Assembly: GCA_016841675.1 (NCBI GenBank)
Contig: JAENYQ010000031.1
Coordinates: 1-35,458, forward strand
Direction: 5' to 3'
From: Desulfotomaculum sp.
Lineage (GTDB): Bacteria > Bacillota > Desulfotomaculia > Desulfotomaculales > Desulfallaceae
Length of the DNA stretch: 35,458 bases
The notes under the pieces were generated by a model, which was not told where the DNA came from, did not search any database, and saw only the letters and a program-made list of their open reading frames with translations. A program made the position numbers and the translations under genes. Below are positions 309-25,460 of the stretch, one piece after another. Numbering within the stretch: the stretch's first letter is position 1; each line of letters starts with the position of its first letter.

Positions 309-345
309 GGGGTTTGGTGTTATCGTAAGGATGCGTAGGAGCTTA
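309..345. repeat. Solo arm of the GGGGTTTGGTGTTATC palindromic repeat, carrying the gyrA stop codon
   Basis: This 37-base segment matches the right arm of the large palindromic element at 25068-25244 in reverse orientation, with about two differences. The gyrA stop codon (TAA on the minus strand, 343-345) is the first triplet of the shared sequence. Only one arm is present, so it is either a remnant or a minimal form. Confidence 0.75.
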
Positions 346-23648: not shown

Positions 23649-25046
23649 TTGGCTGAACAAAGCACTCTTGCATATAACAGGAAAACGGTCTGGGAACACT
23701 TGACCGAACAGGAAAAACAGGAAGTTATGAATATAGCCGAGGATTATAAAATTTTTTTGGCCAGGGCTAAAACAGAAAGGGAATCTGCTGCCTTGGTTGT
23801 AGAACACGCCAAAAGCCAGGGATTTATTTCCTTGGACAGTGTAAATGGCCCTTTAAAGCCCGGGGATAGGGTTTATCGCCTGGTGAAGGGTAAATCTGTA
23901 TTGCTGGCGGTAATGGGTGAACAGTCTGTAACTGAAGGATTTAATGCGATTGGCGCCCACCTGGACAGCCCGCGCTTGGATCTTAAGGTGCACCCTCTTT
24001 ACGAGGATGAAGGTCTGGCCTTGTTAAAAACTCATTATTATGGAGGAATAAAAAAATACCATTGGTTGGCCCTGCCACTGGCATTGCACGGGATTGTTTA
24101 TCGCGGTGACGGTTCGGGGGTGGAAGTTCGGGTGGGTGACGAACCCGGCGACCCGGTGTTTACCGTTACTGACCTACTGCCACACTTGGCCAAAGATCAA
24201 ATGGACAAAAAATTAAACGATGCGTTTCCCGGTGAAACACTAAGGGCTCTTTGTGGCAGCCTGCCGGCGGGAGACGAGGAAATCAAAAACCGGGTAAAAG
24301 AGAATATGCTGCTGCTTTTGTACGATAAATACGGATTAACTGAAGGTGACCTGGTAACCGCAGAGCTGGAACTAGTGCCGGCCATACCTCCACGGGACGT
24401 TGGCTTTGATCGTTCCCTGGTGGGCGCCTACGGCCAGGACGACCGGGTTTGCGCATATGCACAGCTGCTGGCTATAGCCGCTGCAGTTCACCCATCCCGT
24501 ACAGCGGTGGCAATTTTTGCAGATAAAGAGGAAATCGGCAGCGTGGGCAATACAGGCATGCAGTCCAGTCTATTTTTAAATTTTATAGCCGAACTGGTGG
24601 AACGAAGCACAGGAGGTTACAACGAACTTTTATTACGTCGCTCGCTAAGTGCCTCATTTGGCCTGTCCGCTGACGTTAACGTAGCTTTGGACCCTGTCTT
24701 TGCGGACACGGTGGAAAAGGATAACACCGCCCGCCTGGGTTGCGGGGTGGTGCTAACCAAATACACCGGGGCCAGGGGCAAGAGCGGGTCCAATGATGCC
24801 CATGCTGAGTTTTTATCCCGAGTGGTAAGGATTTTTAACAGTCGAAATGTAATTTGGCAGACCGGGGAACTAGGCAAGGTGGACCAGGGCGGTGGAGGTA
24901 CAATAGCATATATGATGGCTGCTCACGGGATGGATGTGGTAGATTGTGGCGTAGGGCTATTAGGAATGCATTCACCTTTTGAGGTGTGTCATAAAGCAGA
25001 TTTATATATGGCGGTTAGGGGTTACGCGTCTTTTCTGCTGGCTTAA
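23649..25046 (+). CDS. apeA: M18 family aminopeptidase
   Basis: A 465-residue zinc aminopeptidase of family M18, probably cytosolic and dodecameric. Metal and catalytic residues are in place: His104 and Asp106 in GAHLDSPR, the bridging Asp in GQDDRVCAY (264 or 265), Glu294 and Glu295 in DKEEIGS, and His441 in GMHSPFEV. It likely removes N-terminal, perhaps acidic, residues from peptides. The start is TTG at 23649, eight bases after AAAGGGG. It stands alone between two repeat clusters, and no terminator is seen except the palindromic elements downstream. Confidence 0.94.
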   Translation: MAEQSTLAYNRKTVWEHLTEQEKQEVMNIAEDYKIFLARAKTERESAALVVEHAKSQGFISLDSVNGPLKPGDRVYRLVKGKSVLLAVMGEQSVTEGFNAIGAHLDSPRLDLKVHPLYEDEGLALLKTHYYGGIKKYHWLALPLALHGIVYRGDGSGVEVRVGDEPGDPVFTVTDLLPHLAKDQMDKKLNDAFPGETLRALCGSLPAGDEEIKNRVKENMLLLLYDKYGLTEGDLVTAELELVPAIPPRDVGFDRSLVGAYGQDDRVCAYAQLLAIAAAVHPSRTAVAIFADKEEIGSVGNTGMQSSLFLNFIAELVERSTGGYNELLLRRSLSASFGLSADVNVALDPVFADTVEKDNTARLGCGVVLTKYTGARGKSGSNDAHAEFLSRVVRIFNSRNVIWQTGELGKVDQGGGGTIAYMMAAHGMDVVDCGVGLLGMHSPFEVCHKADLYMAVRGYASFLLA

Positions 25047-25067
25047 CTTTTGCTATTTACATAGTAA

Positions 25068-25244
25068 GGGGTTTGGTGTTATCTCCAGGATGCTACTCGC
25101 TATTATACTTGAAAGAGCTCGTTCGCTTTCGGGCGCCGGAGAACTCACGCCCTGCGGGCGTTCAAACATGCACCGGCGCTTCTCCTTCAGCTCTCTCACT
25201 CTTTGAACTAAGCTCCTACGCATCCTTACAATAACACCAACCCC
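25068..25244. repeat. Large palindromic repeat GGGGTTTGGTGTTATC, full copy
   Basis: A 177-bp element with inverted ends: GGGGTTTGGTGTTAT on the left and ATAACACCAACCCC on the right, extending with changes through AGGATGC/GCATCCT. The interior is also nearly self-complementary: TTGAAAGAGCTC against CTCTCACTCTTTGAA, and GGCGCCGGAGAA against CACCGGCGCTTCTCC. A central CGCCCTGCGGGCG hairpin completes it. As RNA or ssDNA it could fold into one long rod. It encodes nothing visible. Confidence 0.85.
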
Positions 25245-25277
25245 CCCCCGGAATGTGCTATTTGCAAAGTTTGGTAA

Positions 25278-25360
25278 TTGGTTTGGTGTTATCTCCAGGA
25301 TGCTACTCGCTATTATACTTGAAAGAGCTCGTTTGCATCCTTACGATAACACCAAACCCC
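25278..25360. repeat. Large palindromic repeat, internally deleted copy
   Basis: The left 50 bases equal those of the 25068 copy through GAAAGAGCTCGTT; the sequence then jumps to TGCATCCTTACGATAACACC and closes with AAACCCC. It therefore keeps both ends but lacks about 95 interior bases. It lies only 33 bases after the full copy in the same orientation. The rest of the 25047-25460 gap shows no gene. Confidence 0.85.
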
Positions 25361-25460
25361 TACGAAATGGGTCAGGGGAAGCGAAACTAGTGTTTGAAGT
25401 GATTTAGCGCAGAATTACGGTCATCTTCTTTAATGGCGGTGGGCTTACAGGAGGCTTGTG

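Follow-up and report, generated by a model that had tools for sequence, protein, structure and literature searches.

The window (the whole 35,458-bp stretch of Desulfotomaculum sp. DNA analysed here, which is contig C76 of a 3.84-Mb draft genome) carries a full-length and an internally deleted copy of what is probably a non-autonomous MITE-type element. According to this reading, to which we give a probability of roughly 0.7, units of about 230 bp are mobilized in trans at TANNTA sites, the unit of the window was duplicated, one of the two copies lost 95 bp and the folded strand is under selection. Bacterial MITEs have mostly been described species by species; here, an interior fold persists across a phylum. 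That the shape is kept while the letters change hints that the shape, perhaps as RNA, does something.

The full copy and its internally deleted twin

The full copy (25068..25244, plus strand) is a 177-bp imperfect palindrome forming one long rod, which belongs to the family retrieved by BLAST and matches the covariance model R3 with 150.1 bits. It is given here in the orientation of the model; the purine-rich loops discussed below are those of the minus strand. The twin (25278..25359, plus strand, 82 bp) begins after a gap of 33 bp and lacks 95 bp from its middle. The left 63 bp of both copies (25064-25126 and 25274-25336) are 95% identical, and the alignment of the two copies places a CGC microhomology at either border of the segment absent from the twin (25124..25126 on the left and 25219..25221 on the right, both on the plus strand). 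The junction of the twin carries a T in place of C, i.e. one C-to-T difference at the join. Both copies fold far better than their shuffled versions (-64.6 kcal/mol vs -44.4 +/- 3.9, z = -5.2, for the full copy; -35.7 kcal/mol vs -13.5 +/- 2.9, z = -7.7, for the twin), 0 of 200 shuffles being as good in either case. The initial annotation, which had described a palindromic copy of 177 bp followed 33 bp later by a twin shortened by about 95 bp, was thus accurate both for the two forms, as seen from their coordinates, left-part identity and folding, and for the three sizes. It had delimited the interior correctly, but the complete unit is longer, with outer arms of about 24-29 bp per side, bearing the terminal repeats, in relatives.

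Traces of these arms can be recognized by eye at the window locus. The spacer between the copies (25245..25277, plus strand, TGCTATTTGCAAAGTTTGGTAA) reads as what is left of a right outer arm, fused to a left outer arm, and resembles the spacers or left arm of tandem arrays found on contigs C140 and C45. The full copy is preceded by its probable, weakly recognizable left outer arm (25044..25067, plus strand), which resembles the left arm of the spacer, and the twin is followed by the remnant of a right outer arm (25360..25385, plus strand, starting with TACGAAATGGGTCAGGGGAA) that can be compared with CCGGAATGGGTCAAGGGAAC, followed by TAG, on C140. The locus has no intact outer end, as the end motif TCAGGGGGAACTAG is unmatched in the window with up to two mismatches allowed, and no target duplication is recognizable there. 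The pair is intergenic and follows an ORF whose translation reads as an M18-type aminopeptidase.

With E up to 1 as threshold, R3 matches nothing in the window but the two copies. BLAST also detects a one-sided family fragment (310..345, minus strand) that R3 leaves unreached at this threshold; it abuts the 3' end of gyrA and contains the TAA stop codon of this gene (345-343, minus strand). As for known structured RNAs, the window gives only a tRNA with Rfam 15 at gathering score.

Copies in the same genome and in relatives

BLAST with the full copy gave 32 matches in its own genome: 13 near-full-length ones (window copy included) and, for the rest, partial ones. Among 60 genomes searched in this way, 6 had matches, the own genome included. 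Two tandem arrays were found in the latter: four units spaced by 228-229 bp, approximately the unit length, on C45, and two units spaced by 288 bp on C140. The copies are mainly intergenic, 45 of 50 places being free of any overlapping ORF of at least 110 aa (places hand-chosen among the collected loci, with crude ORF calling). The initial annotation had proposed a non-autonomous family and had held that, were there no other copies in the genome, the pair would be a local duplication; the 13 near-full-length copies, together with the partial ones, those of relatives and the target duplications at other sites, uphold the family.

At the site corresponding to the window locus, the element is absent from three related genomes (G001, G004 and G005), and alignments with three others (G006, G007 and G008) leave just 54-69 bp between the flanking matches. 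In G002, about 40 bp look like what remains of the right arm, a resemblance that is no more than suggestive. Another site is more telling: G002 harbours a complete 232-bp unit (L082) where the own genome (G000) has the same flanks and ends, almost no interior and a foreign insert. By parsimony, the interior was deleted there after insertion. The window pair fits such an in-place deletion following a tandem duplication, and for the twin, loss of 95 bp from a local duplicate is the best reading. The initial annotation, which had offered a non-autonomous element or replication slippage of a long hairpin, is thus supported; it does not cover the phylum-wide conservation of the rod. In-place deletions with readable junctions constitute a natural record of the trimming of long hairpins.

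Several copies show local peculiarities. In the own genome, a REP-like hairpin (GGTCAGGGGACACACCC...GGGAATGTCCCC) lies inside the copies L014 and L015 (C140) and L016 (C5); these copies look as if the hairpin had been inserted into them. Other hairpins are inserted in copies of G001 (L042/L049 and L173) and G004 (L041 and L046). A loop of about 11 nt in the innermost hairpin region exists in two versions, CTCAGACATG and CGAAAGTCTAG, within the same genomes, one resembling the other inverted. In G001, the end of one copy (L060, contig C276) lies directly 5' of an ORF, with the final bases continuing into the ribosome-binding-like sequence AAGGAGGAG.

The complete unit and its target duplications

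The complete unit of the genus measures about 230 bp and consists of the 177-bp interior surrounded by outer inverted repeats of about 15 bp, without any recognized gene. The arms of many copies terminate in GTTCCCCCTGAAAAA and its complement. This end occurs at 19 places of the own genome with at most one mismatch, vs 1 place for the reversed control. A profile of the 232-position unit retrieved 22 units with both ends, to which five short forms were added. Units delimited by two ends range from 51 to 310 bp. Perfect 6-bp target duplications, all of them TANNTA, flank 11 of the 27 units (crossed flanks are perfect in 22 of 702 combinations), and none of 10000 permutations reaches the observed mean. 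The duplications of the remaining 16 units are imperfect, in part owing to mis-snapped ends or decay: the end-snapping rule shifted the ends of L122 and L169, whose flanks are equal by eye and which are counted as imperfect all the same. Two very short units (L071 and L065; 51 and 60 bp, respectively) keep both ends and a perfect duplication. A second family (f7) has a related end, GATTCYGCTGAAAAA, and perfect TANNTA duplications in four of the five units that have both ends, two of the seven loci entered being without a pair of ends. Flanking duplications, which the initial annotation had proposed to look for, are therefore present at other sites (perfect for 11 of 27 units) but not recognizable at the window locus.

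Two further observations concern the surroundings of the unit. In another family (f60), similar terminator-like hairpins flank the copies L307, L308 and L309 on both sides; insertion of this family may target or duplicate palindromes and not TANNTA. In L236 (G073:C77:48-225), the terminal stem is prolonged outward into a perfect palindrome, with arms of at least 47 bp, that the start of the contig cuts short.

No autonomous element with the same ends, as envisaged in the initial annotation, came to light through pairs of ends or through the loci inspected. ISDol1 and IS1182 are IS family labels that might at most be considered for it. None of the 20 PF01609 loci of four genomes and none of the 6 PF05598 loci (three of six genomes) carries such an element, several loci being cut by contig ends. 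Pairs of ends in G000 (at most three mismatches; about 100 of the 201 places listed) revealed none either; among the places listed, the only facing pair 0.7-4 kb apart (C77, 0.8 kb) corresponds to two separate short units. Such weak ends are uninformative, since the reversed control has 185 places vs 201. A 3.7-kb pair of ends in G021 was rejected as a transposon, as it encloses what appears from its translations to be an ABC-transporter operon. In G045, four contigs (C18, C15, C22 and C39; L290-L293) stop only a few bases away from ends of the GATTCTGCTGAAAAA type, beside TANNTA; a longer repeated element, possibly an autonomous partner, may have broken this assembly.

Distribution across the phylum

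The covariance model of the interior (R1, E up to 1e-5) matches 26 of the 113 genomes of the order, belonging to 14 of 55 genera and to six family labels; a search of the class is the same search, as the class holds the same 113 genomes. Full-length matches to the covariance model are mostly 165-184 nt long. With R3, which was trained on 71 matches, 29 of 398 genomes of the phylum were matched, i.e. 6 of the own order and 23 distributed among eight other families. Three of these 23 genomes are single-contig, and a few of the matches are partial or weak. All these counts at the scale of the order and of the phylum are lower bounds, as the strict filters lose weak matches. The G+C content is 0.53 for the window copy and ranges among the 71 matches from 0.43 (the twin) to 0.64.

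R3 had no match in any of 19 genomes from other phyla that contain the core 19-mer; an empty result of this kind says nothing by itself, but R3 does match within the phylum. A scan with this 19-mer yielded 48 stretches, of which those from other phyla are single in each record and mostly from high-GC groups; these look like chance occurrences. Rfam gave no match up to E 1 for six loci with distant members. A plasmid or phage origin was considered and rejected, as blastn of the window copy found no match among 72,556 plasmid and 50,697 phage records. None of the open-licence papers listed deals with comparable repeats in these bacteria.

A conserved rod fold

The conservation of the fold was assessed from several alignments. 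One (A1) comprises 34 of 49 units, without those carrying large inserts, a 248-bp unit from C45, a half-foreign copy from G008 and truncated or shortened copies; two consist of hand-chosen sequences (21 in A2 and 40 in A4); the last (A3) covers 67 loci and 71 matches, the twin included. In a plain MAFFT alignment of the 34 units, 96.2% of the cells are paired, vs 33-49% for slid structures, and both partners have changed in 12 of 28 pairs. Among the 71 model-fitted members, whose alignment was fitted to the model and hence leans towards it as fitted alignments do, the covariation score reaches 0.509, shuffles giving 0.157 and slid structures 0.05-0.12; each of the ten terminal pairs varies at both positions. 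A further model (R2), built from a plain alignment of 40 distant members, was discarded as it had lost the terminal stem.

Comparisons that need no alignment were carried out on hand-chosen representatives, mostly one or two per genus label. In 29 of them, the first 24 nt bind the last 24 nt of the same element at a mean of -29.7 kcal/mol vs -11.2 kcal/mol when crossed, the own partner being the best for 27 of the 29 terminal stems. In 32 representatives, the mean number of centre-symmetric pairs per element is 48.6 (lowest 15) vs 8.3 for shuffles (highest 57). Because the interior fold persists across the phylum while the letters of the stems and the outer ends drift, the fold looks like a selected structure.

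Which strand folds, and as what

In the predicted folds of the 32 representatives, the unpaired bases of the minus strand are mainly purines (43% A and 30% G). Tandem G-A (G-A/G-A) accounts for 51 of 68 two-by-two loops vs 61 of 561 in shuffles, and GGA/GGA for 13 of 50 three-by-three loops vs 8 of 422; 24 of the 32 folds contain one or more tandem G-A loops. In RNA, tandem G-A pairs make up a well-known stable motif, and DNA forms them too. The strand asymmetry of folding energy is not counted as evidence for RNA, because shuffles, through their base composition, show most of it in the same direction (-5.8 vs -10.1 kcal/mol). The comparison of GU and AC leaves the strand undecided by columns (29:43), and its cells (32:53), taken only from pairs predicted on both strands, are not independent counts. 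The orientation relative to the flanking genes has no clear bias (19 sense, 11 antisense, 11 divergent and 3 convergent).

On these predicted folds, an RNA reading of the rod is possible to likely, though unproven. Tentatively, the family might even represent a mobile class of structured RNAs, namely a rod of about 177 nt with variable closing stems and tandem sheared G-A loops, carried in many copies through the whole phylum by small transposons with different outer ends, the RNA (or single-stranded DNA) being the conserved functional part. This raises testable questions: is the rod transcribed or bound, and does it serve the transposon or the host?

Origin of the pair and alternative explanations

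The following model can be proposed for the pair. A transposase provided in trans, presumably of the DDE type, would have inserted the unit at TANNTA sites and duplicated 6 bp. At the window locus, recombination would have led to the tandem duplication of one unit, after which one of the two units would have lost 95 bp between the CGC triplets, probably through replication slippage or repair across the hairpin. Compensatory changes would maintain the rod in many of the phylum's lineages, with purine-rich tandem G-A mismatches between its stems. Selection would act on the folded single strand, which would most likely be an RNA produced from the minus strand of the window or else a single-stranded DNA substrate.

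The roles could be reversed if the rod were a family of structured non-coding RNA genes (minus strand of the window, about 177 nt) travelling on transposon ends, with the RNA as both the payload and the reason for conservation. This explanation, which we regard as possible and clearly weaker than the MITE-type reading, would fit a rod and loop sequences that are maintained under 14 family labels (6 of them within the order and 8 outside) while stems and outer ends vary, the A/G-rich unpaired bases and tandem G-A loops of the minus strand, and the narrow length range of full-length matches; the lack of an Rfam family and of a consistent orientation to flanking genes argues against it, and the energy asymmetry is mostly a matter of composition. 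More doubtful is a hairpin recognized as single-stranded DNA by a recombinase or an HUH-type enzyme, comparable to integron attC sites or REP elements, in which the mismatches would be protein contacts. The conservation of mismatches on one strand, the tandem arrays and the insertion of other hairpins into the core would suit such a substrate, whereas the 6-bp target duplications and the symmetrical outer repeats point, in two families, to a double-strand DDE mechanism.

Bacteria are known to mutate through quasi-palindrome correction, and stems that change letters yet stay complementary could be produced by template switching during replication, one arm being corrected from the other. A passive palindrome of this type, complementary without any function, should however lose its mismatched internal loops, whereas G-A/G-A persists between diverged stems and the loop letters are conserved, which makes it unlikely. 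Finally, two adjacent copies in a draft genome could simply reflect a local duplication or an assembly artefact limited to this locus; the independent copies on many contigs and in many genomes, with distinct flanks, rule it out for practical purposes. The MITE-type element, mobilized in trans and trimmed in place, remains the preferred reading.

Comparison with known systems

REP elements associated with transposases (RAYT) are palindromic and dispersed, and are much shorter than the present element. As they consist of a short hairpin tied to a Y1 transposase, the length of the present element (177-230 bp) argues against its membership. Integron attC sites, simple conserved sites next to gene cassettes that IntI recombines, were considered for comparison owing to the one-strand conservation of mismatches in the present element.

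Prokaryotic MITEs are described as multicopy, mainly intergenic and typically AT-rich elements of less than 500 bp, bounded by inverted repeats of about 4-30 bp and flanked by direct repeats (PMC10969869). A related autonomous IS is expected to provide their transposase. The present element has the size and the terminal repeats (units of about 230 bp and ends of about 15 bp in relatives and elsewhere in its own genome, those of the window locus not being intact), as well as the direct repeats, the copy number and the intergenic location. It departs from AT-richness, which is typical and not obligatory, with a G+C content of 0.53 for the window copy. ERIC, BOX, RUP and Correia, which are dispersed and mostly intergenic according to the description in PMC10969869, resemble it in these two respects, the present element having no Rfam match; BOX, RUP and SPRITE reportedly insert into one another (PMC10969869).

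Two MITEs come closest. Chunjie from Geobacter uraniireducens is 235 bp in full length and has shortened copies of 178-235 bp, with tens of copies in total (PMC10969869). As described there, it shares with the present element the coexistence of full and shortened forms, tens of copies, terminal repeats and direct repeats, but it belongs to another host group and section 4 of PMC10969869 does not describe a phylum-wide conserved fold for it. QMITE2 from Coxiella burnetii is a MITE of about 190 bp with full and small versions and a stable predicted stem structure; related sequences occur in distant bacteria and it is an insertion target for another element (PMC5896051, PMC10969869). All these features, as given in these descriptions, have their counterpart in the present element. 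The direct repeats of QMITE2 are described as 7-11 nt long and variable in sequence, unlike the 6-bp TANNTA found here, and an analysis of compensatory changes such as that made for the present element does not figure in the accounts of PMC5896051 and section 4 of PMC10969869. What appears new with respect to known MITEs, and sets the element apart from Chunjie and QMITE2 as these are described, is an interior whose fold is conserved throughout a phylum, in contrast to its variable ends.
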